15,660 nucleotides of DNA from Fimbriiglobus sp. (GTDB taxonomy: Bacteria; Planctomycetota; Planctomycetia; Gemmatales; Gemmataceae). This document shows, piece by piece, positions 1 to 14,451 of this stretch (its first letter is position 1; each line of letters starts with the position of its first letter). Below the pieces are notes generated by a model that made no database searches, had not been told where the DNA came from, and saw only the letters and a program-made list of their open reading frames with translations. Both the position numbers and the translations under genes were made by a program. Where the stretch lies: assembly GCA_025352585.1 (NCBI GenBank), contig JANXTD010000092.1, positions 1-15,660 on the forward strand, in the 5' to 3' direction.

Positions 1-1286
1 GTCAACTGCCCCTGGTACTCCTGGCACAGCAGCGGCTTGATCCAGTCGATGCGCGGCCGGCCGGCGTGCCTCGACTCGGCCCACCACGCCTCGACCGCGG
101 CGCAGACTTGCAGCAGCCGGTCGCGGTCCGGGTGCGCCAGCTCGCAGTAGCGCCCCGACGCCAGGAACTCGCCGTAGCGCAGCGCCGGGTCCTTGAGCGA
201 CTCGACCGACAGCAGGCGGTTGATCGCCCGCAACTCGTCGGCCGCGTTGTCGCCGAGGGCGTCGCCGAGGGGCGGGCCGAAGTAGCCCTTGCGGTAGTAG
301 CCGGCCAGCCGCGGCACCGGCACGCCGTCGAGCCGCGCCCCGCCCTCCTGCACCATCTTCGCCAGCCGGGCCTCGCGGGTCGCGGCGCTCTCGCCGGGCC
401 GCGCCCAGGCGTCGTTCTCCGGGAACCTCCAGCCGACCACGTCCGCCACCAGCACGCCGTGGCCCGGCAGCTTGGGGTCGGGGTGGACCAGCAGCGTGCC
501 GTCGGGCTGGGCGAGCAGGTACTGGTGCCGCGGCGAGATGCCCCGGCGGTTCTCGACCACCCGCGTGAAGTTGACGACCGCCACCAGCGCGTGCGTGACG
601 TGCGAGTCGGCCCAGCGCGCCGGCCACCCCACGGCCACCAGGCACTGCGCCCCCCGGCCGCCGACGCCCGGCGCGAGCTGGAAGGCCGACACGTAGGACG
701 GCGAGCGCGGGTACTCCCGGCACATCCGCTCGCACACGTCGCGGACCGCGCTCCAGGCGACGGGGTCGGCCGGGGCGTCGGCCGGCAGCGTGCGGCCCTT
801 CAAATCGACGGTGCGGAGCGCGGTCACCCCGGTCACCGCCCCGCCGCCCGCCGGCGTGCGGGCGATGGCCACGGCGTGGGACTCGACGAGGGTGTCGGCG
901 AAGAAGCGGCGGCGGACCTGGGCGGCGGTGGCGGGGGCCTGGCCGGGGTCGGGCATCTTGAGCGGCCGCTCCTGGTTGAACCGCTGCAAGGCCTTCTCGG
1001 CGTCCTCGTCGAAGCGGTCGAGCGGCCGGCCGTTGAGCGCGCGGGCCTCGCGGGCCACGTCGCGCACCAAGTAGTCGAACTCCTCGCGGATCTCGTTGGC
1101 CCGCAGGTTACTCTCATCGCTGAGGTCGATGACTTCGTGGGCCGTGAGGATGTCGCGGCCCTCGTTGAGGAAGCGCGAGCTGGTCATGGTGATCGGCACG
1201 ACGAGGACGAACAGCCCGAGGATGACGAACTGCTGCCAGAGCCGCAGTTTGCCGAGCAGTCTCAAGATGCCGTCCGCGATGCCCAT
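1..1286 (-). CDS. Membrane-anchored sensor protein with Cache-like extracytoplasmic region (partial, C-terminus beyond left edge)
   Basis: The frame is open without a stop from an ATG at 1286 to the left edge, giving 428 codons. A short cytoplasmic N-terminus with basic residues (about 1-17) is followed by one hydrophobic helix at about 18-35 (WQQFVILGLFVLVVPI), then at least 390 soluble residues that should lie outside the cytoplasm. Residues about 233-280 have the Cache/PAS-like pattern: a hydrophobic strand (ALVAVVNFTRVV), then QPDGTLLVHPDP and a loop. Such sensors normally continue into a second membrane helix and a HAMP, histidine kinase, PP2C phosphatase or Ser/Thr kinase output, but none of that lies in the window, so the output is unknown. 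The start is the first ATG after a G-run (weak Shine-Dalgarno). The gene lies 83 bp downstream of the kinase-CHAT gene on the same strand and may share its transcript. The membrane topology is well supported; the Cache assignment is by pattern only. Confidence 0.75.
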   Translation of the reverse strand, partial: MGIADGILRLLGKLRLWQQFVILGLFVLVVPITMTSSRFLNEGRDILTAHEVIDLSDESNLRANEIREEFDYLVRDVAREARALNGRPLDRFDEDAEKALQRFNQERPLKMPDPGQAPATAAQVRRRFFADTLVESHAVAIARTPAGGGAVTGVTALRTVDLKGRTLPADAPADPVAWSAVRDVCERMCREYPRSPSYVSAFQLAPGVGGRGAQCLVAVGWPARWADSHVTHALVAVVNFTRVVENRRGISPRHQYLLAQPDGTLLVHPDPKLPGHGVLVADVVGWRFPENDAWARPGESAATREARLAKMVQEGGARLDGVPVPRLAGYYRKGYFGPPLGDALGDNAADELRAINRLLSVESLKDPALRYGEFLASGRYCELAHPDRDRLLQVCAAVEAWWAESRHAGRPRIDWIKPLLCQEYQGQL

Positions 1287-1369
1287 GCCGCCCCCCCGCC
1301 CACGATTCGCGAGTGGACAGGGTACCACGAACGGCCGGGCGGCGAGAGGGGAAAGTGCGGGGCGCCGGC

Positions 1370-4300
1370 TTAACTGGGCGGGCCGACCGTTGCCAGCCGG
1401 GCGGCGGGGTCGGCGAAGCAGCGGTAGGCGAGCCACGTCGGGTCGCCGGGGTAATCGGCCCGCACCGCGAGCCGGGCTTGCCGCACCGCCTCACCGATCG
1501 GCAGCCCCTCGCCCAGCCGTCGGTAGAAGTGCCCGGCGAAGGCCAGCGCCGCGTCGTCGGTCACCGACCACAGCGAGCCGACGAACGCGCCGCACCCGGC
1601 TTGCGTGAGTCGCGCCCCCCACGAGCCGAGTTGCGTCAGGCCAAAGCCGAGCCGGCCGCTGTGGCAGGCGTTGAAGAAGACCAGCGGGGCGCACCGCCGC
1701 AGCGCCGCCGCCATTTGCGGGGAGATTTCGGCGGCGCGGAACGCCCCGTCCTCCAGGTGGACCGCCGAGGCATCGGCCGCGCCGCCGGCGAACGTCCCGT
1801 GGCTGGCGACGTGCAGCGCCGTGAACTCGCCGGCCGCCAGCAACTCCCGAAGCCGGCGGCGTAAGGCTGGCGCGCACTCGACCGCGACCGAGGCCGACCC
1901 CAGCGAGCGCATCATGTCCATCTCCTTGCCCGCCGACGGCAAGTGCGTATTCGCCGTGACTTGCTCGTCGAGTTGGCCCACCGGAACGATGTCGCGCGTG
2001 ACGGTGCCGGAGTCCCGGCTCGGCGGCGCGGACCCGCCGGCCGCCATCGCCACCACCTTTCGCAGCGACAGTCTCGCGACCGGCGGCCGGCCGCGGAGCC
2101 AGTGCGTGAGGGCGTAGGTCGCGCCCCAGAAGTCGTCCTCCTGCAACTCGCCGGTGGCCGGGTCGGTGCGGAACGGCTTGAGCAGCTCCCAGGGAATGTG
2201 CGGGTCGTCCGACAGCACCAACACGCTGCGGACGCCGCGCTCCCGCAACACCCAGCACAGATCCTTGAGCGCGGGCGGCAGCAGTTGGTCGTAGAGGCTA
2301 GCGCCGATGCCCGCGAGGACCGCCGCCGCCTCGTCGGTCGCGCCGCCGGCCGCCAACTCGCTGAGGGTCCGCAGGTGTCCGGCCACCCACTCGCCGAGGT
2401 CGGCGTGCAGGTCGCGCGTGCCGAAGTCGCCGTCGAGGACGGCCAGGTCGGCCAGCCGCGGGCCGGCCGACGAGACGACGAACTGCAACCGCCCCGGCCC
2501 CCCGGCGAAGCGGTGGACGAACACCTTGAGCACCACGTCCGGCGCGGGCCACGCCACGGGCCGGGTGAAGTCCGAGTCGTCGCTCGCCGGGGCCGCGAAG
2601 TCGGCGGCCCCCTCGCCAGCGGCCGCGACTTCGGGCAGCAGGTCCACCGAGCCGACTGGCCGGCCGCACTGGGCGAAGTCCACCATGACGCGCCCCGGCC
2701 CGACCGCCAGCCCGCGCAGCGAGAACGTCACCGCCATCGACGATCCGTCCGCCGGGACGACGAGTTCGGCCCGCGCCGGGCCGTCAAGGGCGAAGTTCTC
2801 GGCCGTGACGCTCACAGTCAGCCGCGTCGCCGTGTCGAGGGCCATCGTGACATCGTGGTCGTGCGGCTTGGGCCGCGCCCGCACCTCGCCGGTCGGCAGC
2901 GTCTCGTCGGCCGGCACGACCGCGACGCGCAGCAGTTGGACCTTGCCGACCGGTACGCGCGCCGGGAACGACACGTCCGTGTGCCGCCGGCTCCCGACGC
3001 CCCGGTGACGCCCGCGCAGCAGGCTGGCCGCCGCGCCCAGCCCCGCGGCGACCACCCCGCCGAGCGCCGCGAGCCAGCCGGGGGACGGCTTCACGGACGG
3101 CAGGGGCGGCCGAGCCGGCGCGACGGTGCCGTCGTAGCGAGACGGCCGCGCTTTGTGGAAGGAGGCTTGTGAGCCGCGGATGATCTCTTGCAACTCCGGG
3201 TCCAGTTCCGGCTCCGGCAACTCGCCGCCGGTCGGGTCATCGCGGTTGGTCAGGACCGCTGGACGACTGCCGGGTGCTTTCACCGCCGGCAGTCCCGAGA
3301 TGTATAGCTCCCCGCCGCCCGCCGGCCAGCCGACCGCCGGGGGCGTGAACAGATCGACCCTGTGTTCTTGCATGTCGCCCAGGGTCGGAGCGCCAGGACT
3401 CGGGAGCGCGCGAGACGGAGCTGCCAAGCTGAACGAACTAGGCTTTCGTAGCTCGCCGGGGGCTAGCACCAGTAGCCCTTCGATGCCGCGCTCGAGTTGC
3501 TTGACCAGATCGACGCAGGTGCGGTAGCGGTCAGTGACGCGCCGGGCAGACGCCCACTCGAGCGCACGCCGCTCGCCCCGCGTAACAATCGGCGACGACA
3601 AGTCGAGGTCGCCCAAGGCATGGGCTGTCACCATCTCGAGCTGGTTCATGCCGTCCGCGAACGGCCGCCGGCCGGTACGCAGCTCGTAGTAGCTGATGGC
3701 GAGCGAGTACTGGTCGGTGCCGATGTTCGGCTTGTTCGCTGAGAGTTCCGGCGGGGCGTAAACCGGCAAGAAGGCCGAACCGACTGTTTTACGAATGTAT
3801 TGATTCAGCGACACCGCCAGGCCGCAGTCGGTGATCTGCACCTCCGTGCCCGCGACGACCATCATGTTGTCGGGCTTGATGTCGCAGTGGACGGTCGGGC
3901 CGTCGATCATTGAGTCAACGCCCTCGTGCCGGGCGGCGTTGAGGTAGTCGATGCCCCTGGCGGCCCCGAGCATGTAGTTGAGGAGTTCCGCGGGCGGGAT
4001 GCCGCGCGTGATCGGCTCGTCGTCCTCCGCGTCGCTCCCGGCCACGCGATTGACCTCCTTCAGCCTCGCGCTCAAGCTTCTCTCACCGAGGCCCATCAGG
4101 ATCAGCAGCAGCTTCAGCTTGCCCTTCTGAGCCGCCATATCGACAGTGTGCAAGTCGAGGAACTGGCCGTGCTTGTCCTTGAGCCAAACCTTGACGATGG
4201 GCACCAGGTTCGGGTGGTCCAGGTTCATCACGAGCTTGAGCGCGCGGAACTCCTTGAGGGCACTGGAGCTGTACGAGAGGTCGATGATCTTGAGCGCGAG

Positions 4301-4429
4301 GTGCTTGCCGGTCGCCAGGTCAATCGTCTTCCAGACCTGGCCGAAAGTCCCCCCGCCGAGGTAGTCGGTCAGGCGGTAGCCGGGCACCGGCTCGTCGCCA
4401 GGGACGTAGTCGTGGCTTCGCGGCGGCAT
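1370..4429 (-). CDS. Ser/Thr protein kinase fused to a CHAT (caspase-like) protease domain
   Basis: This 1019-residue protein starts at an ATG preceded by GGAG at 4435-4438. Residues about 17-315 are a Hanks-type kinase: glycine loop GGGTFG (25-30), ATP lysine K47, likely helix-C E60, catalytic loop HCDIKPDN (181-188, base D183), metal-binding D201 in DCG (usually DFG), and YAPPE (224-228). The HCD motif lacks the usual arginine, so this is a non-RD kinase. A Pro-rich linker (about 325-450) leads to a hydrophobic stretch at 452-471 that could be a membrane helix. A probable beta-rich region (about 485-600) precedes the CHAT module (about 630-1015), which has the IPWELL motif (745-750), the dyad histidine H877 in VASHG and the dyad cysteine C922 in FFNACHSG. 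Both halves therefore look catalytically complete. CHAT proteases are caspase relatives known from bacterial defence and cell-death systems; kinase control of the protease is inferred from the fusion. The flanking same-strand genes encode a propeller protein and a membrane sensor. Confidence 0.93.
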   Translation of the reverse strand: MPPRSHDYVPGDEPVPGYRLTDYLGGGTFGQVWKTIDLATGKHLALKIIDLSYSSSALKEFRALKLVMNLDHPNLVPIVKVWLKDKHGQFLDLHTVDMAAQKGKLKLLLILMGLGERSLSARLKEVNRVAGSDAEDDEPITRGIPPAELLNYMLGAARGIDYLNAARHEGVDSMIDGPTVHCDIKPDNMMVVAGTEVQITDCGLAVSLNQYIRKTVGSAFLPVYAPPELSANKPNIGTDQYSLAISYYELRTGRRPFADGMNQLEMVTAHALGDLDLSSPIVTRGERRALEWASARRVTDRYRTCVDLVKQLERGIEGLLVLAPGELRKPSSFSLAAPSRALPSPGAPTLGDMQEHRVDLFTPPAVGWPAGGGELYISGLPAVKAPGSRPAVLTNRDDPTGGELPEPELDPELQEIIRGSQASFHKARPSRYDGTVAPARPPLPSVKPSPGWLAALGGVVAAGLGAAASLLRGRHRGVGSRRHTDVSFPARVPVGKVQLLRVAVVPADETLPTGEVRARPKPHDHDVTMALDTATRLTVSVTAENFALDGPARAELVVPADGSSMAVTFSLRGLAVGPGRVMVDFAQCGRPVGSVDLLPEVAAAGEGAADFAAPASDDSDFTRPVAWPAPDVVLKVFVHRFAGGPGRLQFVVSSAGPRLADLAVLDGDFGTRDLHADLGEWVAGHLRTLSELAAGGATDEAAAVLAGIGASLYDQLLPPALKDLCWVLRERGVRSVLVLSDDPHIPWELLKPFRTDPATGELQEDDFWGATYALTHWLRGRPPVARLSLRKVVAMAAGGSAPPSRDSGTVTRDIVPVGQLDEQVTANTHLPSAGKEMDMMRSLGSASVAVECAPALRRRLRELLAAGEFTALHVASHGTFAGGAADASAVHLEDGAFRAAEISPQMAAALRRCAPLVFFNACHSGRLGFGLTQLGSWGARLTQAGCGAFVGSLWSVTDDAALAFAGHFYRRLGEGLPIGEAVRQARLAVRADYPGDPTWLAYRCFADPAARLATVGPPS

Positions 4430-4434
4430 GACGG

Positions 4435-4438
4435 CTCC
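4435..4438 (-). promoter_or_regulatory. Ribosome binding site of the kinase-CHAT gene
   Basis: On the minus strand GGAG lies five bases before the ATG at 4429, at normal Shine-Dalgarno distance, and supports this start. The 87-bp gap to the upstream gene shows no clear terminator hairpin. Confidence 0.5.
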
Positions 4439-4516
4439 GGTCGGGGGGTTCGACGCCTACTTGACGTACTTGCCGTGCCACGCCGGGTCCAACTCCCTTT
4501 TCGCCCGGCAGTCGGC

Positions 4517-7129
4517 TCACCCCACGAAGACGCCGGCCGCGCCGGGGGTCGGCTCGAACCCGAACGCCTCGGCGGGGGCCGCGCCGGCGAGCGCCCGCCC
4601 CAGGTAGGCCGCGACGCGGGGGCCGACGCCGGTCACGAGGTCGGCCAGCCGGTCGCCGTCGAGGCTCTTGACCGCGACCCGCACGCCGGCGCGCCCGGAC
4701 GGGTCGCCGGCGAAGAAGTCGGCGACGCGGACTTGGCGGCCCGCCGCGAGCTGCGCCCCGGAGAACGCCGTCACGCGAGGCCCGCCGCCCGGCCCCGCCC
4801 CGGCCACCACGTCCGCGAAGCCGTCGCCGTCCACGTCGCCGGCGGACACGAACGCGCCGTTGCGCAGGGTCGGCTCGAAGGCGAAGAAGTCGGGGGTGAG
4901 CCGGGCGAGGCCGCCGCCGTCGCCGGCGACCGTCCGGCCGTCGAACACCGCCACGCGCGGCCCGCCGCCGGTGCCGGCCGCGACCACCAGGTCGGCCCGT
5001 CCGTCGCCGTTCACGTCGCCGACGGCGGCGCGCGCCCCGCCGCGGAACGCCAGGTCGGCGATGCCGAAGAAGTCGGCGAGCGGGGCGAAGGTCGCGCCGT
5101 CGAACGCCCGCACGCGCGGCCCGCCGCCGTCGTCCGGCGTGACGACGAGGTCGGCGCGGCCGTCCCCGGTCAGGTCGCCGGCCGCGACGAGGACGCCGCC
5201 GAGGAACGACGCCTCGAACGGGTCGGTGGCGAAGAGGCGCTGGAAGGTGACGCCGTCGTAGACCTCGACGCGGCTCGCCGCCCCCGGCCCGCTGCCGACG
5301 ACGAGGTCGGCGACGCCGTCGCCCGTGAAGTCCGCGGCCGCGACCCGCACGCCGCCGGTGAACCCCGCCTGGAACACGCTGGTCGTCCGCACCGCCTTGC
5401 CGTCCGGCCCGTAGACCCCGACGACCGGCACTCCGCCCGCGTCCGGCCCGACGGCGAAGCGCGTCGTCCCGCCCAGCGCCGGCGGCAGCGGCACCACCGG
5501 GGGCGGGGGAACTACGGGCGGGACCACCGGAGGAACGACGGGCGGGACCACCGGGGGAACGACCGGAGGCGGCGTCACGTCCACCGCGACGACGCCGGTC
5601 GCCGTCAGACCGTTGGCGTTCGTGACGGTGACGCGGACCGACGTTGACCCGGAGCGGCCGGCGACCGGGGTCAGCGCGAGCGTCCGGTCGGCCCCGGACC
5701 CGCCCGCCACGAGGCCGCTCGCCGGCAGGAGCGTCACGTCGTCGGCGGCGGCCGTCACGGTGAGCAACGCCGCCGACTGCTGCGGGTCGGCGACGGTGAA
5801 CGCGAGGGTTTGCGTACCGTTCGCCGCGACCGTCAGCGCGGCCGGCAGCCCGGTCAGCGTCGGCGGCTGGACGCCGGCCGGCAGGAGTCGGACGACCACC
5901 GGGTCGGCCCTCAAACTGACGGCGTAGACGGCGGTCCCGCCTGGGATAGGGGCGACGAAGACGGGGTCGAAGTCCACAGGCGAGGTGTCGATCGTGCCGC
6001 CGGCCCCGAACGCCGGGTCGGCCGCGCCGCCGGCGGTCAGCCCGAAGACGGCGAGTTCGTTCGAGGGGACCGCGACGAGGCCCCCGCCCGGCCGCTCGCG
6101 CACGGTCGGCACCGCCAGCGCGGCCGTCGGCCCGCCGCTGCCGAAGGTCGTGTCCCGAACCCCGGCGGGGCTGAACTTGAGGAGGGCCGAGGACGCCGGG
6201 TTCGGGTTGGTGATCCCGGCGGTGTTGTACAGGAGCAGCGCCGAGCCGTCGGCCAGCGCCGTCAGCCCGAGGCGCACGGTGGTGAGGCCCGGCCCCGCGA
6301 ACGGGCCGGCGACCGCCTGACCGCCGGTCCCGTAGCCGCCGTCCGCCTGGCCCGCCGCGTCGAGCCGCGTGAGGACGGCCTGGAACGGCGACGGCGACGG
6401 CGGACTCGGCCTGCGGCGCACGGCCAGGACGCGGCCGGTGCCGTCCGCCGCGGCGAGCTCGGTGTCCGCGCCGAGCGAGGCGAGGCCGGCGGCCCCGTAA
6501 GTCGCGTCGGTCGCCCCGGCCGCGGTCAACCGGCGGGCGTAACCCTGCACGGTCTGGTCCGCCGCCGTCTCCGCCGCGGCCACGAGGATCGTGCCGTCCG
6601 GCCTCAGCGCGAGTGAGAGCGGGGTCTCGGACGTGTCGGCCGGCGCGGCGAAGCTCAGCGTCAGCCGGCCGTCGCCGTCGAAGGCCGGGTCGAGCGCCCC
6701 GGCGGCGGTCAACTTGGCGAGGACCACCCGCCGCGGGCCGAAGACGAAGCCGGCCGTCGCCGGCGCGGCCGCCGTCCCGACGACGACGACCCCGCCGTCC
6801 GGCAGCAAAGTGATCGACACCGGCAGGTCGTCGCCCAGGCCGGGGCCGATCAAGTCGAACGCCACCACCGCCAGGCCGTTGACGCCGAACGCCGGGTCCG
6901 GCAGCCCCGCCGGCGTGAGTTTCACGACGCCGAAGTCGGCCGCCCCGCCGGTCGCCCCGACGCGGCCGGCGACGACGACGGAGCCGTCGGGGCGCGCCGC
7001 GATGTCCTCGACGCTGGCCAGGCCGGTCGCCCGCGCCACCCCGGCCGAGCCGTAGGCCAGGTCGATAAACGGGGCGGCCGGCGTGTCCCGCACTTCCAAA
7101 GCTTCGAGTCGAGGGCGCAGCGGTGTCAT
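4517..7129 (-). CDS. Delta-60 repeat and FG-GAP/VCBS repeat protein, probable exported double beta-propeller
   Basis: This 870-residue protein begins MTPLRPRLEALEVRDTPAAP, an 'RLEALE-R-TPA' start typical of large planctomycete exported proteins, with no ordinary hydrophobic signal peptide. Residues about 22-385 hold seven delta-60-type units (such as DPAFGVNGLAVVAFD at 78-92 and DPAFDGDGRLTLSF at 147-160), enough for one propeller. Residues about 420-518 look like an Ig-like beta domain, followed by a Val-Pro linker (about 519-550). Residues about 555-840 hold FG-GAP/VCBS units with calcium-binding loops: DFTGDGVAD (600-608), DLTGDGRAD (652-660), DVNGDGRAD (705-713), DVDGDGFAD (765-773) and a degenerate LDGDRLAD (823-830). 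Proteins of this kind are usually surface or secreted binding proteins; the ligand is unknown. No enzyme motif or C-terminal anchor is visible. It is the first of three same-strand genes. A 982-codon open frame that overlaps it on the same strand (7268 to 4320) is a high-GC shadow. Confidence 0.88.
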   Translation of the reverse strand: MTPLRPRLEALEVRDTPAAPFIDLAYGSAGVARATGLASVEDIAARPDGSVVVAGRVGATGGAADFGVVKLTPAGLPDPAFGVNGLAVVAFDLIGPGLGDDLPVSITLLPDGGVVVVGTAAAPATAGFVFGPRRVVLAKLTAAGALDPAFDGDGRLTLSFAAPADTSETPLSLALRPDGTILVAAAETAADQTVQGYARRLTAAGATDATYGAAGLASLGADTELAAADGTGRVLAVRRRPSPPSPSPFQAVLTRLDAAGQADGGYGTGGQAVAGPFAGPGLTTVRLGLTALADGSALLLYNTAGITNPNPASSALLKFSPAGVRDTTFGSGGPTAALAVPTVRERPGGGLVAVPSNELAVFGLTAGGAADPAFGAGGTIDTSPVDFDPVFVAPIPGGTAVYAVSLRADPVVVRLLPAGVQPPTLTGLPAALTVAANGTQTLAFTVADPQQSAALLTVTAAADDVTLLPASGLVAGGSGADRTLALTPVAGRSGSTSVRVTVTNANGLTATGVVAVDVTPPPVVPPVVPPVVPPVVPPVVPPPPVVPLPPALGGTTRFAVGPDAGGVPVVGVYGPDGKAVRTTSVFQAGFTGGVRVAAADFTGDGVADLVVGSGPGAASRVEVYDGVTFQRLFATDPFEASFLGGVLVAAGDLTGDGRADLVVTPDDGGGPRVRAFDGATFAPLADFFGIADLAFRGGARAAVGDVNGDGRADLVVAAGTGGGPRVAVFDGRTVAGDGGGLARLTPDFFAFEPTLRNGAFVSAGDVDGDGFADVVAGAGPGGGPRVTAFSGAQLAAGRQVRVADFFAGDPSGRAGVRVAVKSLDGDRLADLVTGVGPRVAAYLGRALAGAAPAEAFGFEPTPGAAGVFVG
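5516..5563. repeat. Two 24-bp tandem repeats encoding the Val-Pro linker
   Basis: Two adjacent 24-bp units (5516-5539 and 5540-5563) differ at a single base, and degenerate partial copies flank them. On the minus strand they encode repeats of VVPP in the linker between the two halves of the propeller protein. Copy number could vary by slippage without breaking the frame, since the unit is a multiple of three. Confidence 0.8.
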
Positions 7130-7415
7130 CGGGAGTTGTCCAGGTGGCGGCGTCAGGGTGGGGCGTCATTCTACCCGGTTCCCATCCGCCGACGCGCCGC
7201 GCCCGCACAGCAATGGCATCGACCACGTCGCGCCGCTCGGTGGCGCGGGGCCGCCCGCCGGCCGACACCGGCAGGTGCGGCTCGATCGACCGACGCTGCT
7301 CGTCGGTGATGTCATCAGGCTAGGATTAGGTTCTCGTGGGCCACTCGACGCACCCTATCACCTCGACTGGACAGTCACTCACCGATCCGGCCAATCCGAA
7401 AAATTCAGTGCAATC

Positions 7416-7427
7416 GTAAAATTTTAC
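7416..7427. promoter_or_regulatory. A+T-rich 12-bp perfect palindrome (possible operator)
   Basis: GTAAAATTTTAC is a perfect dyad inside the only strongly A+T-rich patch of the divergent spacer, and is followed by CAATTG (7430-7435) and a TTGACT (7436-7441). A dyad in a divergent promoter region is a typical place for a dimeric regulator. No regulator gene is adjacent and function is unproven. Confidence 0.3.
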
Positions 7428-7543
7428 TTCAATTGTTGACTCCCCTCGGCGAAAGTGATGTGTCGGTGCTTTGAGCATCGGCGTCCGCCAGCCACCAAAG
7501 TTACGGCGGCGACGTTTCCGTACTGCCTACCGTGAACACCTGT

Positions 7544-7548
7544 GAGGG
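7544..7548 (+). promoter_or_regulatory. Ribosome binding site of the TPR gene
   Basis: GAGGG lies six bases before the ATG at 7555. It supports that start, which also begins a clean signal peptide. Confidence 0.6.
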
Positions 7549-7554
7549 TCAGCG

Positions 7555-8304
7555 ATGAAGTACTTCATGACGACCGCGGTCGTACTCTTCGCGGTGGTGG
7601 CGTTCAGCCCACCCCGCGCGAGCGCGACCGACCCCGTCACCCTTTACGTCGCCAAGGCCATCGGCGAGTGGGCGGTCGGGGCGGCCTTCGACAACCTGTG
7701 CGACGCGGCCACTGGCAAGCCGAACATCCAAGAGATCGACCGGCGGTTGAAGGCGGTCGAAGAGAACACCGCGCTCCGCAGCGAGATGCGGGAGGAGATC
7801 CGCCGGGTGCGGGCGGGCCTGAACGACCGGGTGACCAAGGAAGAACTCCGCTCGGCCCTGGCGGGTCTGCAAACCCAGTTGACGGACATCCTGCGCCGCG
7901 TCAGCGCGCTCGAGGAGCGCGTCGAACTCCAGGAGGTCGAGATCGACGACCTCAAGAAGGCGACGAAGAACGCCTCGAGCGCCAGGGGGTTCCTGGCCCG
8001 CGGCCGGGACTGCGCGGCCAAGAAGGAGTACCACCGGGCGATGGCCAACTACGCCATCGCCATTCGACTCGACGAGTCCTCGAGCGACGCCTACGTGGCG
8101 CGGGGCCAGGCCTACTACGAGTTGAAGGCGATCGAGGTGGCGCTGATCGACTACACCAAGGCGATCGACCTGGAGCCGAAGTGCCTGCCGGCGTTGAAAG
8201 GCCGGGGCAATGTCTTCATTGCCAAGCAGGAGTACGGCCGCGCCGTGTCCGACCTCACCGCGGCCCTCGGGGTCAACAAGAAGGATGACGAGTCCCTCAT
8301 GTAG
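7555..8304 (+). CDS. Secreted coiled-coil/TPR protein, N-terminal portion ending at an in-frame TAG
   Basis: The 249-residue product starts at an ATG with a good ribosome binding site and has a signal peptide (basic KY, hydrophobic core about 5-17, ASA cleavage site near residue 24). Residues about 60-140 are rich in Glu, Lys, Arg and Leu in heptad-like spacing and probably form a coiled coil, as in trimeric periplasmic TPR proteins. Three TPR units follow at about 144-177, 178-211 and 212-244. The frame then meets TAG at 8302-8304, inside helix A of a fourth TPR, and carries on in the same frame to 9303 with about seven more TPRs and a C-terminal domain. The intact gene would be 582 codons long. 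The open question is whether this is a true nonsense mutation, a read-through site or a sequence error. TPR proteins act as scaffolds; the partner is unknown. Confidence 0.8.
   Translation: MKYFMTTAVVLFAVVAFSPPRASATDPVTLYVAKAIGEWAVGAAFDNLCDAATGKPNIQEIDRRLKAVEENTALRSEMREEIRRVRAGLNDRVTKEELRSALAGLQTQLTDILRRVSALEERVELQEVEIDDLKKATKNASSARGFLARGRDCAAKKEYHRAMANYAIAIRLDESSSDAYVARGQAYYELKAIEVALIDYTKAIDLEPKCLPALKGRGNVFIAKQEYGRAVSDLTAALGVNKKDDESLM
8302..8304 (+). other. In-frame amber codon interrupting a single TPR gene (7555-9303)
   Basis: Reading from 7555, codon 250 is TAG; the next codons in the same frame give RGYAYHALAKYDNAIEDY, a perfectly phased TPR helix pair. By alignment to the repeats around it, the TAG sits at TPR position 6, two residues before the conserved glycine, a variable position where many residues would be tolerated. 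One base change from CAG, GAG, AAG, TCG, TTG, TGG or a Tyr codon would create it. No frameshift or missing sequence is needed to explain the break. Confidence 0.85.
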
Positions 8305-8424
8305 CGGGGGTATGCCTACCACGCATTAGCAAAGTACGACAACGCCATCGAAGACTACAAGGCGTCACTCGGGCATGGAGTTGGGTTCGCGGAACTGTGG
8401 AACTGCCTCGCGGTCTCCTACCAG

Positions 8425-9303
8425 ATGAAAGGGGACCACGCTCTCGCCCGCGAATCTCTGAACAAGGGGATGAAACTCGACCCGAAAAACGCGATGTACC
8501 TCGCAAACCGCGGGTGGTCTTTGTACAAGCTAGGTCTTCCTACTGACGCGATCCGAGATTGCGATGACGCACTCGAGTGTAACTCGAAATGGTTGCTCGC
8601 GTGGGAAGTCCGGGGTCTGTGCAAGTACGCCGGCGACAAGCCGGGCGACGGCGTCGCGGACTTGACGCGGGCCATCGACCTCGGCAGCGTGAACCGGCAA
8701 GTCTACGAGAGCCGCGGCGACTGGCACTGCAATCAAAAGGAGTACGTCAAGGCCGTGACGGACCTCGACCGGGCGGTGAGCCTCGGGGCGAGCGGCTGGG
8801 CGGTCTACAAGAATCGGGCCAACTCCAACTACATGGTCGGCTCTTACAAGGAGGCCATTGACGACTCCACCAAGGTGATCGAGGTCAAACCCAGTCGGGA
8901 TGTCCAAGCCAGTATGTTCTGGGTCCGCGGCTTCTCGAAGCGTGAGCGCTATGACCGCGTCGGGTACAGGGAGGACGTTGCGAAATCGCTCGAACTCGAC
9001 GGCGATTACCAGAAGTATCTCAAGGCCGGCGACGTGTTGGTAAAGAACAACTCGAAATCGACCGTGACAATCGACATCGACTATTTCGTGAAGTCCTCTG
9101 GTGACAAGGAGAGTTTTACGTTGCCGCGGGAATGGAAACTCAAGGCCGGCGAGTCATTCTATATACTCTACGAAAGAGAGCATATTTACGCGCAGAGAGT
9201 TCAAGCATATGTCAAAACGCCGAACGGCAAGAAGCTGTACGCCTGGGACTACAAGTCCGGCGTCACCCTGGAGGTGGCGTTCGGCGACGCCGACCTCCCT
9301 TGA
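8425..9303 (+). CDS. TPR protein, C-terminal portion in the same frame as 7555-8304
   Basis: The open frame begins directly after the TAG at 8305; the first ATG is 8425, but no Shine-Dalgarno sequence precedes it and it lies inside a TPR, so independent initiation there is doubtful. From 8305 the product has TPRs starting RGYAYHAL, FAELWNCLAVSY, AMYLANRGWSLY, WLLAWEVRGLCKY, NRQVYESRGDW, GWAVYKNRANSNY and ASMFWVRGFSKR. About 95 residues follow, probably beta-rich, beginning YLKAGDVLVKNNSKSTVTI, which I do not recognise. Codon use shifts within the piece: TTA, ATA, AGA and other A+T-ending codons are frequent, most clearly at 9155-9225, unlike neighbouring genes. The encoded structure depends on the upstream part, so this is most likely the second half of one protein rather than a separate gene. 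Confidence 0.7.
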   Translation: MKGDHALARESLNKGMKLDPKNAMYLANRGWSLYKLGLPTDAIRDCDDALECNSKWLLAWEVRGLCKYAGDKPGDGVADLTRAIDLGSVNRQVYESRGDWHCNQKEYVKAVTDLDRAVSLGASGWAVYKNRANSNYMVGSYKEAIDDSTKVIEVKPSRDVQASMFWVRGFSKRERYDRVGYREDVAKSLELDGDYQKYLKAGDVLVKNNSKSTVTIDIDYFVKSSGDKESFTLPREWKLKAGESFYILYEREHIYAQRVQAYVKTPNGKKLYAWDYKSGVTLEVAFGDADLP

Positions 9304-9586
9304 ACGCCCCCGCGTCACGTCAAGGGTCGGGGAACGGACCGCTCCGCCTGGCGCGACCGCGACGGCGATCTGAAAGCACTCCCGCGCCGACCGGCCTGGG
9401 GACGCTCGCCCCGCTCGCCGCCGTCTGCCTCGATCAGGACGGACCGGCCGCGCCCTGAGGCGGTCGCCGAGCCGGTGCGCCAGCTCGGGGGCGCGGAGTT
9501 GAAGCAGCGGGTCTGCGAATACTTCGGCTACGCCCCGACGCCCGACCTACAACAGGCAACTCGATCCTGCACGAACCCGAGTCGCC
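9304..9586 (+). other. Intergenic region with a possible degraded coding remnant
   Basis: This 283-bp stretch has no complete gene. From about 9455 to 9560 one plus-strand frame reads as plausible protein (AELKQRVCEYFGYAPTPDLQ) with no start codon of its own and no recognised family. It runs out of frame with the next gene. It may be a gene remnant or chance high-GC coding bias. Confidence 0.25.
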
Positions 9587-10507
9587 ATGCTCCCCACCCT
9601 GCTACTCGCGCTCGCCGTCGCCGCCCCGCCGGTTAGCGGCGACGCGACGATTCGCGGCGAATTCGGCGGCTCCGCCATCGTCGTCCGCACGACCGCGCGG
9701 TTCGCCGGGGCCATCGACTCGCTGACCTGGGGCGGCCGCGAGTTCATCGACCGCGCCGACCACGGCCGGCAACTCCAGTCGGCGGCCAGCTTCGACCGCG
9801 CCGCGAAGGGCGAGTTCTGGGCCGAGCGCTTCAACCCCACCGAGGCCGGGTCGCGGGCCGACGGCGACGGGCCGACCTCGACGAGCGAACTCGTCAGTCT
9901 CAAGGCGACGGCCGCGGAACTGCGCACGACGACGCGGATGGCCTTCTGGCTCAAGCCCGGCGAGCAGTCGGCGGGGCGGCCGGCCCTCAACGACGCCGCC
10001 GTCTCGCGGCACCTGCTGGCGAAGCGGGTCCGCGTCGGCCACGGCGCGCTCGCCAACGTGCTGGAGTACGACGTGACCTTCACCGTGCCGGCCGGGGAGC
10101 GGCACACGTTCGCGCAGTTCGAGGCGCTGACTGGCTACATGCCGCCGGAGTTCGCCGTCTTCCGCAAGTTCGCGGCGGCGACCGGCCAACTCGAAGCCCT
10201 CGGCGACGGCCCCGGCGAGCAGGCGTCGCCGGTCGTGTTCGCCACGGAGTCCGGCGGGCACGCGATGGGCGTCTACTCGCCCGACCAGCCGTCACCGGGC
10301 GACGAGGCCGCCGGTTACGGCCGCTTCCGCTTCGCGGCCGAGAAGGTCGTCAAGTGGAACTGCGTCTTCCGCTCGCGCGCCCCTAAGGGCGTCGCGGCGG
10401 GCGTCGCGGCGGGCGACCACCGCTTCCGCGTCTTCGTGGCCGTCGGCACGCTCGACGACGTGCGGCTGGCGCTGGTGGCCCTCGACCGCGAGTTCGCGCG
10501 CCGCTGA
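9587..10507 (+). CDS. Exported protein of unknown family
   Basis: The 306-residue product begins with a short signal peptide (MLPTLLLALAVAAPPVSG, probable cleavage near residue 18-19). The mature part is dominated by alternating beta-strand patterns, with conserved-looking phrases such as IDSLTWGGREFIDRADHGRQLQSA (written here as a pair: IDSLTWGG and DHGRQLQSA), FNPTEAGS and EYDVTFTVPAGERH. It ends in a probable helix (LDDVRLALVALDREFARR). The whole resembles an all-beta carbohydrate-binding or mutarotase-like fold in texture, but I do not recognise the family and no catalytic motif is evident. There is no strong Shine-Dalgarno sequence; the start is chosen because it gives the signal peptide. 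It is convergent with the solute-binding-protein gene, with stop codons only 15 bp apart. Confidence 0.75.
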   Translation: MLPTLLLALAVAAPPVSGDATIRGEFGGSAIVVRTTARFAGAIDSLTWGGREFIDRADHGRQLQSAASFDRAAKGEFWAERFNPTEAGSRADGDGPTSTSELVSLKATAAELRTTTRMAFWLKPGEQSAGRPALNDAAVSRHLLAKRVRVGHGALANVLEYDVTFTVPAGERHTFAQFEALTGYMPPEFAVFRKFAAATGQLEALGDGPGEQASPVVFATESGGHAMGVYSPDQPSPGDEAAGYGRFRFAAEKVVKWNCVFRSRAPKGVAAGVAAGDHRFRVFVAVGTLDDVRLALVALDREFARR

Positions 10508-10522
10508 CGGGCGATTCCCGGC

Positions 10523-12004
10523 TTACGGCAGCCCCACGGCGTTGCGGCGGTGGCGGGCCAGCTCGGCGGGCGGCACCTTGGCGTCGAGCGCCTTCCAGGC
10601 GGCCGTCGCCTCGGCCATCGCCGCCTCGGGGGCCACCTCGCCGGTGCCGAGCCGCCGCAGGGTCGCCTCGAGCGCGGCCTGGCGGGCGTCGGCGTCCGGT
10701 AGCCGGGTGATCGTGGCGGGGTTGGCGACGTTCAGCGCCAGGAAGCCGCGCATCGCCTGGGCCAGGCGGCGCGACTGCTCCGCGTCGAACTTGTAGCCGA
10801 GCCACAACTTTTCGTTGGCCTCATCGACGTGCTCGCGGCGGAAGGGGCCGCCGCCGGTCGCGGGGTCGCTCAGGGCCGCGGCGCTGCCGGGCGCGGCCGC
10901 GGCGTCGGCCAGGAAGTCCCAGGCGGCCTGCGGCTCGGCGCAACTCTGGCGGACGACCCCGACGAGCGTGTGCGTCCCCAGGAACGGCACGGAGTTTCCG
11001 CCCCCCGCCGCGGCGACCGGCTTGCCGTCGGCGTCGAAGTAGTTGCGCGTGCCGGGCAGCGGGGCCACGGCGAAGCGGGCCGCGACGCCGCCGGTCGCCG
11101 GGTCGAGCGGCAACTGGCCGAGGTCGCGCAGTTCCAGGAATTCGAGGACGGCCCCGCCGGCGTCGGGCGCGGCCCCCGGCTTGGGCCGGTACGCGGCGCT
11201 CGCGGCGAGCCAGCGCGCCGCGGCCAGGAACCCAGGCTTCCCGAAGCGCGGCTCGCCGGTGAACGGGTCGGCGAGCAGGTCGAGCGCCGACGCCGGGGCC
11301 GGCGGGGCGTCGCGCGCGACCACCTCCGTGGCCGCGGGGCGGTCGTAGCAGGCGGCGACGCGCAGGAACAGCGTGCTCAGTTCGCCCGGCGCGGCCGGCA
11401 GCGGCGGCAGGCTGGGCCGGCCGTCGGCGGCGCGGAAGTACGCCGCCACGTCGAGGGCGTCTTCGTAGGTGCGCGGCGGCTGGAGCGGCCGGCCGGTCCG
11501 GCGGGCGAACCCGGCGCGGTCGGCCTCGGCGGCGAAGCGGTCGGCCCGGTAGACCAGCGCCGCGCCGTCGGCCAGCAGCGGCAGCCCGACGACCTCGCCG
11601 GCCCAATTCACGAGCGTGTCGCGGTACGCCTCGGCGATGCGGCCGCGCAACAGCGGGTGGTCGGCGGCCTTGAACGCGGCCGGCAGCGGCAGGCAGGCCA
11701 GGCCGGGGGTGGTCAGCGTCGCGCCGAGGCGGCCGGGCGGGATCACCAGGATGTCGGCGGCGGCCGGGTCGGCGACGACGGTCACGATTACCCCCGTGCG
11801 GCCGGCCCACGCCTTGGCTTGCTGGCCGAGTCGCGCGGCGTACACCGGGTCGGTGCAGGCTACGGACAGGCGGATTCGGGCCGGCCCCGCGACGGGCGGC
11901 GGCGGCGGGGTCGGGCCGGACGGGCACCCGGTGGCGGCCAAAACCAGGCAGGCGAACGCGGCGGGAATGAACCGCCGCGCGGAAAATGGGCTTGGCAGTT
12001 GCAT
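10523..12004 (-). CDS. Extracellular solute-binding lipoprotein (ABC-type substrate-binding protein family)
   Basis: The 493-residue product has a lipoprotein signal peptide (basic RR at 10-11, hydrophobic core, lipobox LAATGC with the modified cysteine at C27) followed by a Pro-rich tether (PSGPTPPPPPVAGP). From about residue 43 it follows the bacterial extracellular solute-binding pattern: a first strand (IRLSVAC), a helix (LGQQAKAWAGRTG), a second strand (VIVTVVAD), later AALVYRADRFAAEADRAGF, then PPRTYEDALDVAAYF, which matches the typical 'Y...F..aG...PPkTw.E.l..A' segment of sugar-type binding proteins. Such proteins deliver ligand to an ABC permease, but no permease or ATPase gene lies beside it, so it may be an orphan binding protein or serve a distant transporter. 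It diverges from the FHA gene across 210 bp. The ligand cannot be read from the sequence. Confidence 0.82.
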   Translation of the reverse strand: MQLPSPFSARRFIPAAFACLVLAATGCPSGPTPPPPPVAGPARIRLSVACTDPVYAARLGQQAKAWAGRTGVIVTVVADPAAADILVIPPGRLGATLTTPGLACLPLPAAFKAADHPLLRGRIAEAYRDTLVNWAGEVVGLPLLADGAALVYRADRFAAEADRAGFARRTGRPLQPPRTYEDALDVAAYFRAADGRPSLPPLPAAPGELSTLFLRVAACYDRPAATEVVARDAPPAPASALDLLADPFTGEPRFGKPGFLAAARWLAASAAYRPKPGAAPDAGGAVLEFLELRDLGQLPLDPATGGVAARFAVAPLPGTRNYFDADGKPVAAAGGGNSVPFLGTHTLVGVVRQSCAEPQAAWDFLADAAAAPGSAAALSDPATGGGPFRREHVDEANEKLWLGYKFDAEQSRRLAQAMRGFLALNVANPATITRLPDADARQAALEATLRRLGTGEVAPEAAMAEATAAWKALDAKVPPAELARHRRNAVGLP

Positions 12005-12214
12005 CAGCGCTCACTCGGCTGGTAAGATTTATCGGGGCGGTGGCGGCCGCCGAAAACTACTACGCGCCGCCAGCCGTCGAAGGTCGAAGAATCCCGGCCG
12101 CGAGGACCCCGCCGACGCGGGCGACGCGGCCGGTGGACATGGACTCCTGGAACCTTGTGGCGTGGCCGTGCCCGGTGGTCGGGCCGGCCGCGGGCGTCTG
12201 GAGGCGCACCCGTT

Positions 12215-12979
12215 ATGAAGATCGTTCTCGTTGTGGCGTCCGGGATTTACGCCGGCAAGGAAATCGCCATCGCCGGTAGCCAGTTCGTCATCGGACGCGA
12301 CGAGGACTGCAACCTGCGCCCCGCCAGCCCCGCCATTAGCAAGAAGCACTGCGCGGTCTTCTACAAGGACGGCGAGCCGTTCGTCAAGGACCTGGGCAGC
12401 ACCAACGGCACGTTCGTGAACGACCAACAAGTCGAAGGCGAACGCCCACTCGTCGAGGGCGACAAGGTCCGCGTCGGCCCGCTCGACTTCACCGTGAAAA
12501 TGCTGGGGGCGAGGTCGGACGCGACGCCGCTGCCGAATTCGCTCAAGAGCGTCGTCCCGCCCTCGTCGGCGACGAGCCTGCGGCCGGTCACGGCCGCCGC
12601 CGCCCCGGCCCCGGCGGTCTCGCTGGCCCCGGTCGTCGCCGCGCCCAAGCCGGTCGCGGCGGCGGGGGCGAACCCGATCCCCGCCGCCGGGTCGCGGCCG
12701 TCGAAGCCGGCCGCCCCGCCCAAGCCGGCCGCGAAACCGACGCCGGCGGTCGAGCACGGCGACGACCACATCGCCGCGATGCTGCTGGGCATGAACGACG
12801 AGGACGGCGACCCGCCGCACGTGCCCGAGGGCAGCACGGTCATGGAGATGCCGGCTGTGGACGCCTTCGGCAACCCGGTGGTGCCGAAGGTCGAGGACAA
12901 GAAGAAAATCCCCTCGCCCGAGGACTCGTCGTCGATCGCCCGCGACCTGCTCTCGAAGATGACCCGCCGGCCGCGGTAA
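12215..12979 (+). CDS. FHA-domain protein with Ala/Pro-rich linker
   Basis: I start the gene at the ATG at 12215, preceded by GGAGG at 12200-12204; the frame extends upstream to a TTG, but that would add 20 unconvincing residues. The 254-residue product begins with a forkhead-associated domain (about 1-97) with the phosphothreonine-binding signature complete: GR (27-28), S42 and H45 in SKKH, and GSTNGT (61-66). Residues about 110-180 are a low-complexity Ala/Pro/Val linker, then an acidic segment (about 183-210) and a charged tail ending SIARDLLSKMTRRPR. There is no signal peptide, so it should be cytoplasmic. FHA domains bind phosphothreonine on Ser/Thr kinase substrates, which suits a kinase-rich genome; its partner is unknown, and any link to the kinase-CHAT protein 8 kb away is speculation. 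The stop codon directly abuts the palindromic element. Confidence 0.92.
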   Translation: MKIVLVVASGIYAGKEIAIAGSQFVIGRDEDCNLRPASPAISKKHCAVFYKDGEPFVKDLGSTNGTFVNDQQVEGERPLVEGDKVRVGPLDFTVKMLGARSDATPLPNSLKSVVPPSSATSLRPVTAAAAPAPAVSLAPVVAAPKPVAAAGANPIPAAGSRPSKPAAPPKPAAKPTPAVEHGDDHIAAMLLGMNDEDGDPPHVPEGSTVMEMPAVDAFGNPVVPKVEDKKKIPSPEDSSSIARDLLSKMTRRPR

Positions 12980-13127
12980 GCGAATTCTGGTTGGCCGGAC
13001 GCGCCAGCGACGGGAGCAAATCCCGGCGGGCTACGCTGGCGGGAGTAGACGAAGCGGTCACTTCCCACCGGCATCGCCTCCACGGATTTGCTCCCGTCGC
13101 TGGCGCGTCCGGCCAACCAGAATTCGC
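12980..13127. repeat. 148-bp palindromic element with 44-bp perfect inverted repeats
   Basis: The left arm (12980-13023, starting GCGAATTCTGGTTGGCC) and the right arm (13084-13127) are exact reverse complements over all 44 bases. The 60-bp centre is itself an imperfect palindrome: I match 16 of 30 positions when its two halves are compared as reverse complements. The left arm begins at the first base after the FHA stop codon and the right arm ends 19 bp before the likely mutY start. It has no coding content of its own and no obvious target-site duplication. The stem is far longer than an ordinary rho-independent terminator and has no T-tract; a MITE-like or dispersed palindromic element is the best guess. 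Confidence 0.9.
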
Positions 13128-13134
13128 CAACTTC

Positions 13135-13138
13135 AAGG
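13135..13138 (+). promoter_or_regulatory. Probable ribosome binding site deciding the mutY TTG start
   Basis: AAGG lies eight bases before the TTG at 13147. It is the only Shine-Dalgarno-like sequence before the conserved MutY core in the right frame, so it favours the TTG start over start codons inside the palindromic element. Confidence 0.4.
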
Positions 13139-13146
13139 CTTCCCCG

Positions 13147-14283
13147 TTGCCCGCGCCCGAACCCCCTTTCGCCCCGCCCGCGACCTGGACGAACCGCACG
13201 CTGCCGGCCCTGCGCCGGGCACTGCTGGCGTGGTTCGACGCCCACCGCCGGCCGATGCCCTGGCGCAACTCCCGCGACGCCTACCGCATCTGGGTCAGCG
13301 AGGTCATGCTCCAGCAGACGACCGTGGCCGCTGTCATCCCCTTCTTCGAGCGCTTCCTGGTGGCGTTCCCGACCGTGCGGCACCTGGCCGACGCCGACGA
13401 GCAGCAGGTATTGCACCTGTGGCAAGGCCTCGGCTACTACCGGCGGGCGCGGCACCTCCACGCCGCGGCCAAGCGGCTCGTCGCCGACCACGGCGACGCG
13501 CTGCCGGACGACCCCGCCGTCTGGGCGGAGTTGCCCGGCGTCGGACGCTACATTCTCGGCGCGGTGATGTCGCAGGCGTTCGAGCGCAAGCTGCCGATCG
13601 TCGAGGCGAACAGCCTGCGCGTGCTGGCCCGCTGGTTCGCGTCGCCGCTCGACCCGCGTGCGGGGGCCGGCCAGAAGTGGGTCTGGGCGGCGGCGGCGGC
13701 GGTCTTGCCCGACGCCCGCATCGGCGACTTCAACCAGGCGCTCATGGAACTCGGCGCGACGGTTTGCACGCCCGTCGCCCCACGCTGTGACGAGTGCCCC
13801 GTGGCGAAGTGGTGCGAGGCCCGGCGGCTCGGATTGCAGGCGACGATTCCGCCGCGACCGAAGGCGAAAATCATCACCAACGTCGCGGAAGTGGGCGTCG
13901 TCCTGCACGACGAGCGGGCAGTCTGCCTATTTCAACGGCGTCCCGACGCCAAGCGCTGGGCCGGCATGTGGGAGGTGCCGCACGGCGAGGTCGCGCCGGG
14001 GGAGACGCTCGAATCGGCCGCGACGCGGGTGGTCCGCGAACTGACCGGCTTCACGGTCGCGCTCGGCGAGGAGGTCGCCACGGTGAGGCACGGCGTGACG
14101 CGCTACGCCATTACGCTGACAGGGTTTACGGCACGACGGCGTAGCGGCAGCTTCGCGGCGGGGCACTACACGCAGTGCCGCGAGGTGCCGGCGGGGGAAC
14201 TGGCCGACTACCCGATGAGCACGTCGCAGCGTCAACTCCTGGCCGAGTGGCGACGACCCGGCCGCGCCCGCCGACTGTTCTGA
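13147..14283 (+). CDS. mutY: A/G-specific adenine glycosylase
   Basis: MutY removes adenine mispaired with 8-oxoguanine in base-excision repair. Numbering from a TTG at 13147 gives 378 residues. Seen are PMPWR (36-40), SEVMLQQT (51-58, with the catalytic glutamate E52), the helix-hairpin-helix LPGVGRY (129-135), an iron-sulfur cluster set C207-x6-C214-x2-C217-x5-C223, and a C-terminal Nudix-like domain (about 246-362) with GMWEVPHGE and a degenerate Nudix box. The position of the usual catalytic aspartate (D in the LDGNV motif) reads VEAN, giving E153. The start is uncertain: no ATG precedes the conserved core, and the TTG has AAGG eight bases upstream. The frame stays open back through the palindromic element to a TTG at 12991, but that extension would be repeat-encoded. 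No other repair gene is adjacent. Confidence 0.93.
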   Translation: MPAPEPPFAPPATWTNRTLPALRRALLAWFDAHRRPMPWRNSRDAYRIWVSEVMLQQTTVAAVIPFFERFLVAFPTVRHLADADEQQVLHLWQGLGYYRRARHLHAAAKRLVADHGDALPDDPAVWAELPGVGRYILGAVMSQAFERKLPIVEANSLRVLARWFASPLDPRAGAGQKWVWAAAAAVLPDARIGDFNQALMELGATVCTPVAPRCDECPVAKWCEARRLGLQATIPPRPKAKIITNVAEVGVVLHDERAVCLFQRRPDAKRWAGMWEVPHGEVAPGETLESAATRVVRELTGFTVALGEEVATVRHGVTRYAITLTGFTARRRSGSFAAGHYTQCREVPAGELADYPMSTSQRQLLAEWRRPGRARRLF

Positions 14284-14451
14284 TCTCGACCAGGGTGCGC
14301 GGCCAGCGGCCACCGAATCGGACGTGACCGTGACAAACGACCCCAAACGGTGTGGAAATGGCGGACGGCATGTCGGTTGCTTTGATGAATTGACGGTTAG
14401 AAGTTATTCGTCGAGTGCCGCTCACCTTGCTGCCCCCTCCCGAGGCTCACT
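14284..14451 (+). other. Intergenic region before the DabA-type gene
   Basis: The 168-bp gap after mutY is noticeably richer in A+T at about 14340-14410 than the flanking genes, which suggests a promoter for the next gene rather than read-through from mutY. TTGACG at 14390-14395 and TTGATG at 14382-14387 are -35-like, but no good -10 hexamer follows either at the right distance. Confidence 0.35.

Follow-up and report, generated by a model that had tools for sequence, protein, structure and literature searches.

Why should a Ser/Thr protein kinase and a caspase-like protease share a single polypeptide chain? The question is raised by a 1019-residue protein encoded in a 15,660-nucleotide stretch of DNA of the planctomycete Fimbriiglobus sp. 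(assembly GCA_025352585.1, contig JANXTD010000092.1, positions 1 to 15,660), which we call the window throughout. The initial annotation of this DNA had placed kinase motifs (K47, D183, D201) and the dyad of a CHAT protease domain (H877, C922) in this one chain, and all five residues proved to be exactly where they were said to be. The answer suggested by the relatives of the protein is that the kinase is one of many N-terminal heads, which have been exchanged repeatedly in front of a constant C-terminal tail.

A constant CHAT cassette behind many heads

Pfam finds a kinase domain (Pkinase) at residues 19–266 with an E-value of 4.6e-20, above the curated cut-off, and a CHAT domain (PF12770) at residues 709–992 with an E-value of 1.4e-25 and 90.7 bits against a curated cut-off of 24. 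The kinase has both a Hanks-type profile and the K/D/D triad. The start codon at position 4429 is sound, as the first residues of the protein (MPPRSH...) align with the start of CHAT-less kinase relatives.

We searched with the tail (residues 480–1019), scoring the candidates that shared most words and were 560 to about 1780 amino acids long. This gave 135 proteins, the best 120 of which are considered here. Identity to the tail of the window protein was 42–59% in 118 of these 120 and 36–37% in the other two (P0238 and P0239). Two close relatives with kinase heads, P0003 and P0122, are 58–59% identical over 99% of the tail, which together with the E-values excludes a chance match. The homology sets in sharply at the motif RRHTDVSFP (residue 481; variants in other proteins) regardless of the sequence that precedes it. 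Counting the window protein, 111 of 121 rows have a match that starts no later than the eighth residue of the query (residues 480–487), and in the other ten the N-terminus of the tail has diverged or is missing. Near-pure tails, with heads of less than 30 residues, make up 6 of the 111 rows.

The tail is a cassette composed of an immunoglobulin-like DUF7363 domain, a pseudo-caspase subdomain and the CHAT domain. In the tail model, the DUF7363 region is predicted to form beta strands, with structure matches to MSP/complement beta-sandwich domains, and the part from about residue 630 resembles the two-subdomain arrangement of separase and gingipain, with Csx29 matched as well. This AlphaFold model, which shows the caspase fold of separase and Csx29, is in agreement with the intact CHAT domain of the initial annotation, and the homologues do keep the dyad: H877 is present in 119 and C922 in 120 of the 121 aligned tails, window included. 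The cassette is predicted to be an active cysteine protease. By eye, one relative (P0233) seems to have TPRs and a CHAT-like stretch, in this order, ahead of its DUF7363-CHAT tail, all in a single chain.

The heads were labelled from the listed Pfam domains and names, by which 81 of the 120 proteins received a label and 39 did not. Kinases, whose fusions with CHAT the initial annotation had suggested looking for, are the commonest heads (47 of 120), and 14 of the 47 carry a second domain (sigma-70, RRM, GAF, FHA or receiver). Sigma-70 alone accounts for nine heads, two of them by name only. Proteins of the type VI secretion system (T6SS) serve as heads in the form of the TssB/TssC sheath (six proteins) and of TssK with GAF (three proteins, two of which have FHA too). 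Acyl-CoA synthetase (three), TPR (three), STAS (two) and FHA (two) heads are also present, as are DnaK, WD40, RRM, nSTAND, TIR and tubulin-like heads, one each. When 22 of the 120 proteins were scanned for domains directly, heads of the sheath, TssK, DnaK, nSTAND, WD40, tubulin-like, AMP-binding, STAS, receiver and kinase types were all seen. We also looked for kinase relics beside the tails of non-kinase heads and discarded the idea: the traces were mostly weak, and one protein without a label at first, P0210, simply carries a kinase head that the labelling had missed. Near the C-terminus, the acyl-CoA synthetase heads of P0173 and P0175 read TGK and that of P0182 reads TRT. As such enzymes have a catalytic lysine in this region, P0182 may be a dead enzyme.

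Comparison of closely related tails shows exchange of whole heads. In 66 pairs of proteins the tails share 75% identity or more and both heads reach 100 residues; in 19 of these pairs the heads have no BLAST similarity whatsoever. The tails of P0226 (kinase and receiver) and P0230 (STAS), for example, are 90% identical. In the 39 pairs with heads homologous over most of their length, which are not independent of one another, the head was less conserved than the tail every time. On the tail tree, from which P0236 and P0237 were left out owing to their short tails, the 80 labelled rows require no fewer than 33 changes of head label. In 200 shuffles the average was 45 and the number never fell below 41, so the heads are also partly inherited. 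T6SS-sheath heads stand at four separate places on this tree, through four changes among which gains and losses are indistinguishable, and a tree uniting them is rejected (p 6e-41; mixture model with 110 rows, omitting nine more proteins that are mostly long-branched, of odd composition or diverged).

Origin and catalytic state of the kinase heads

The kinase tree was built with the paralogue found on contig C886 of the window's genome and 60 of 119 control kinases. In this tree, the window kinase groups, with full SH-aLRT support, with eight rows that lack CHAT (P0001, P0002, P0004–P0008 and the C886 paralogue, P0002 being the paralogue itself). An HCD in place of HRD in the catalytic loop and a DCG in place of DFG are common to the window kinase and its close CHAT-less relatives. 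The head is 71–72% identical to the paralogue (72% over residues 1–449) and 82% identical in the kinase core. The chain of the paralogue then runs on into a different, non-CHAT region, and by eye the CHAT cassette replaces this region together with the paralogue's hydrophobic stretch. The kinase part has been under purifying selection relative to the paralogue (nonsynonymous divergence dN 0.117, synonymous divergence dS 0.447, NG86), and a single clade of all tail-bearing kinases is rejected (p 0.0002). These comparisons indicate that the window head derives from a local family of CHAT-less kinases.

They also bear on the possibility that chimeric assembly or gene calling has fused unrelated genes to CHAT. 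Most of the listed relatives are one member sequence on one contig and the window's genome is a draft of 964 contigs, which speaks for such an artefact. However, the gene is one open frame, the boundary is shared by proteins from several sources, the head is similar and not identical to the paralogue, and recognisable domains lie on both sides of the joint in the scans made. An artefact is largely refuted and scarcely credible.

Two further ideas about the history of the gene were tried and dropped. Relative-rate comparisons of the head with P0002 gave 47–48 unique changes against 7 with the close outgroups P0004, P0005 and P0008, and 21 against 12 (p 0.12) with the more distant outgroup P0014. 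As rooting may explain this difference, we do not claim that the head accelerated after the fusion. Composition does not mark the tail as a recent foreign arrival: its GC content at third codon positions (0.931; 0.853 in the head) is inside the range of five other window genes (0.875–0.984).

A catalytic Lys or Asp has been lost in 15 of 41 tail-bearing kinase heads, compared with 5 of 119 kinases that have no CHAT domain listed (Fisher p 8.6e-7), although the controls, all of which were found with the whole window protein as query, are not matched by phylogeny and not every loss is independent of the others. The 41 heads, window included, are those with all three positions aligned; seven of the 48 kinase heads stand outside this set, namely P0141, which has no aligned triad, and six heads without the Lys position. 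When partial alignments are included, loss is seen in 19 of 45 heads, and the head tree requires 11 changes or more. The family does not seem to depend on kinase activity, given that the same tail stands behind non-kinase heads and that catalytic loss is frequent in the kinase heads. As the protease dyad is kept while the catalytic residues of the heads are often lost, the heads are best explained as being recognised rather than as catalysing.

This has consequences for a gate operated by the kinase, which would sense a signal and phosphorylate the linker or the tail, thereby switching the protease on or off. The intact triad of the window protein, the constraint on its head and the fact that kinases are the commonest heads are all as this explanation would have them. 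However, the same tail occurs behind heads that are not kinases, over a third of the scorable kinase heads have lost catalytic residues, and the full-length model (pTM 0.45) places kinase and protease relative to one another without confidence. We consider such gating quite unlikely. The idea of the kinase as a built-in regulator acting by phosphorylation, which the initial annotation had suggested, is not supported for the family. For the window protein alone, which keeps all three catalytic residues, phosphorylation control could still operate, since the triad is intact and the head is under purifying constraint.

Possible modes of action and the genomic context

Our preferred reading, which is tentative and somewhat short of evenly balanced, is that a constant CHAT cassette is combined with interchangeable heads and that the head is a likely sensor or bait whose disturbance would turn the protease on. 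The head would bind a ligand, which may be an effector of an invader, a partner in the host or an upstream signal. Binding or modification of the head would then activate the protease, probably via clustering near the membrane, and the cassette would cut protein, with growth arrest or death of the cell as a result. In the window member the kinase may be active too, and its own phosphorylation state could join the trigger. We infer the activation step and the outcome from the behaviour of CHAT proteases elsewhere (type III-E CRISPR, Borvo). A role in immunity or programmed death, which the initial annotation had raised as well, may be supposed with the same reserve.

A cationic amphipathic helix (score of at least 1.6) was sought in the last 75 residues of the heads of 97 tail proteins. 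It was found just before the cassette in 23 of 97 heads, compared with 33 of 426 other segments, which is an about threefold enrichment, and with 4.5% of shuffles. One such helix, with possible membrane contact, is GLFKGLLGWLGRSMKK in P0193. In the window protein, the hydrophobic stretch at residues 453–471 is a possible membrane-contact helix, modelled as helical only at residues 465–472 and with low confidence. A membrane-lytic helix was considered here and rejected, as the stretch is hydrophobic rather than amphipathic (score 1.28) and the model is unsure; it is kept as a lead.

In a bolder form, the cassette would be a guard protease with plug-in baits. Planctomycetes would have joined a separase-like CHAT protease over and over to copies of their own proteins, and each copy would be an integrated decoy that fires the protease when touched by an invader or a rival, which would make the family a caspase counterpart of plant receptors with integrated decoys. 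We regard this as unlikely, though not far-fetched, and the same doubt attaches to the list of bait copies that it would imply (kinases, sigma factors, T6SS sheath and baseplate parts, DnaK and acyl-CoA synthetase). In plants, nucleotide-binding leucine-rich repeat (NLR) receptors with integrated decoys are receptor-executioners that carry a copy of a host protein as bait. The likeness is an analogy only, and we do not claim that the heads bind invaders. The window head, the one head examined in this respect, is such a copy of a host protein, with a paralogue in the same genome (72% identity, 82% in the core).

The main rival to the sensor or bait reading is that the CHAT tail, upon a signal, cuts its own long linker and frees the head (kinase, sigma factor, TIR and others) as an effector. 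Such a mechanism has been proposed for EACC1-caspase systems with variable domains (PMC7159879), sigma factors would be sensible released regulators, and the linker is long and has low confidence in the model. However, many kinase heads lack catalytic residues, sheath or DnaK heads are not evident effectors, and the 5' neighbour of the window gene encodes a large FG-GAP protein that does not look EACC1-like. Release of the head is in our view fairly improbable.

The cassette is patchily distributed. Of 102 genomes in the window's order, 13 match at all at an E-value of 1e-5, and a close copy is found only in the window's genome. A genome of the same family (G009) has a full-length but distant copy (27% identity), and the two listed genus-mates (G006, G007) have no tail match at 1e-5. 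Samples of the phylum and of the class gave matches in 4 of 392 and 4 of 397 genomes (cut-offs of 1e-30 and 1e-40, window's genome counted in each), which are lower bounds with at most three candidates scored per genome. A scan of GTDB contigs with two short patterns yielded two metagenome-assembled genomes (MAGs), one of Planctomycetaceae (L034, 51% identity in the best segment) and one of Chloroflexota (L035, 31%). The close relatives P0197 and L034 are planctomycete MAGs. None of eight genomes examined has many close tail copies; G494 has eight distant matches. In L034 (2905–5659), an open reading frame (ORF) that is WD40-like by eye stops 19 bases before a tail-only CHAT ORF, i.e. head-like and tail parts adjoin as separate genes.

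Several observations weigh against a sensor or bait that triggers a protease in defence. We found nothing that ties the cassette to phages, to defence islands or to mobile elements. There was no tail match in the phages or viral contigs searched, the plasmid search gave only distant and partial CHAT matches (20 plasmid records), and PADLOC had no match for three neighbours in the window. Its matches for the window protein itself (best mad6, PD-T4-6 and BovA) span the kinase or the CHAT core and not the fusion. The genomic context of the full close cassette comes from two loci only, the window and L034. The protease activity of the cassette is predicted and its effect on the cell conjectural. 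The window head keeps its catalytic residues and is constrained, so that the argument from dead heads concerns the family and not the window protein. The head labels are partly inherited (33 changes against a shuffled mean of 45). Furthermore, common modules of signalling (kinase, GAF, FHA, REC, STAS) make up many of the heads, and these fit plain regulation equally well. The cassette would then serve developmental or stress signalling as a scaffold or regulatory protease, with the heads as plain inputs and without a role in immunity or death. However, TssBC, TssK, DnaK and acyl-CoA synthetase do not qualify as input domains and the distribution is patchy, and we judge this explanation very unlikely.

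The features of the window gene and its immediate neighbours are given in Table 1. The genus-mates retain the downstream histidine kinase (78% in G007, 48% in G006), and HAMP, PAS, HisKA, HATPase and receiver domains were identified in a genus-mate homologue. A conserved operon with this gene was considered and rejected: the 17 kb fetched for the G006 homologue contain no tail protein, and the G007 contig ends close by. Elsewhere in the window, ARAGORN predicts a tRNA-Gly(ACC) at 11487–11581 (minus strand) wholly within an ORF on the same strand (10523–12004), which is probably a false positive. The genes at 12155–12979, 12991–14283 and 14452–15660 are ordinary (an FHA protein, a MutY-like adenine glycosylase by Pfam, and an open ORF). 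The open ORF among them may be DabA-like.

Table 1. Coordinates of the kinase-CHAT gene, its parts and its neighbours in the window (all on the minus strand)
Feature	Residues	Position	Basis or remark
Whole kinase-CHAT ORF, 1019 aa		1370..4429	Open frame, ATG at 4429, Pfam
Ser/Thr kinase head	about 14–317	3479..4390	Pfam Pkinase, profile match 14–317, motif check
Kinase catalytic codons	K47; D183; D201	4289–4291; 3881–3883; 3827–3829	
Linker, low-confidence, probably disordered	331–477	2999..3439	pLDDT <50 in full-length model
Hydrophobic Gly/Ala-rich stretch, 19 residues	453–471	3017..3073	Kyte-Doolittle mean 1.98; directly N-terminal of cassette
Constant C-terminal cassette, starts RRHTDVSFP	481–1019	1373..2989	Sharp homology boundary, 120 listed relatives
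DUF7363, part of Ig-like beta-sandwich	519–596	2642..2875	Pfam E 3.2e-7; model strands
CHAT caspase-like domain	709–992	1454..2305	Pfam, dyad conservation, structure matches
CHAT dyad codons	H877; C922	1799–1801; 1664–1666	
Upstream neighbour, 870-aa FG-GAP/delta-60 repeat protein		4517..7129	Same strand; no link to kinase-CHAT gene shown
Downstream neighbour, N-terminal part of hybrid histidine kinase		3..1286	Same strand; cut by contig end

Relation to known systems

Caspase domains with variable partners are already known. In the two-gene EACC1-caspase conflict system (System 4, Kaur et al. 2020, PMC7159879), a caspase domain occurs with up to 50 interchangeable partners. As in the present family, a constant caspase-superfamily domain is combined with highly variable partners that include signalling enzymes; a membrane link has been proposed for that system. 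However, its caspase is N-terminal and the variable domain C-terminal, whereas here CHAT is C-terminal and the heads are N-terminal. EACC1-caspase systems also have a 5' EACC1 membrane gene and occur mainly in actinobacteria (PMC7159879), whereas the 870-residue FG-GAP protein 5' of the window gene does not look EACC1-like, as judged from a context of two loci and with no EACC1 model run. The best reading of the CHAT cassette family is that of a mirror-image relative of these published conflict systems. According to the passages of PMC7159879 on vWA-MoxR (VMAP) systems, most of the kinases there are catalytically disrupted and have been suggested to be decoys, and they are the nearest precedent found for the catalytic loss in CHAT-linked kinase heads.

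Other CHAT proteins are less similar in architecture. PMC10952713 places type III-E CRISPR and the defence system Borvo under the heading of CHAT protease. The CHAT core of the window protein (residues 833–991) matches the PADLOC model of BovA, the single protein of Borvo, with an E-value of 3.4e-9, and so do 4 of 8 other tail proteins scanned. However, the match covers only positions 507–668 of a profile of 711, and Borvo has neither a kinase head nor a DUF7363 cassette. Craspase TPR-CHAT (Csx29) and the SAVED-CHAT of type III CRISPR have a TPR or SAVED sensor and a CRISPR partner, and neither domain was found in the window protein in Pfam and PADLOC scans. In the retroelement-diversified conflict targets (CHAT, TIR or kinase) described in excerpts of PMC10907252, CHAT is joined to other modules and a variable sensor part is proposed, but these targets vary by mutation of a ligand-binding domain, whereas the window family differs by whole heads. 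Separase, matched by structure at 16% identity, cleaves cohesin in eukaryotes, and no shared biology is claimed.

In the open-access literature we found no account of a DUF7363-CHAT cassette or of heads being exchanged ahead of CHAT. The portions available of a paper on planctomycete kinases (PMC11032199) contain neither 'CHAT' nor 'caspase', and those of a paper on prokaryotic caspase homologues (PMC3501461) do not contain 'CHAT'. What appears to be new, within this literature, is the C-terminal DUF7363-CHAT cassette, the N-terminal heads that include T6SS structural proteins, and the contrast between the kept protease and the lost kinase residues.

If the sensor or bait reading is true, the lone kinase-CHAT fusion of the window becomes one case of a general rule, by which a bacterial caspase family gains new specificities as one complete folded bait takes the place of another on a single conserved protease. 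The sensor of a death pathway could then be read from the head, and kinases without catalytic residues and sheath fusions would be natural experiments on CHAT gating. The heads would also point to the host proteins that are attacked by invaders of uncultured planctomycetes. Should the immune reading prove wrong, the attachment of a protease cassette to T6SS sheath, TssK, sigma and kinase proteins would still call for an explanation as a regulatory device.

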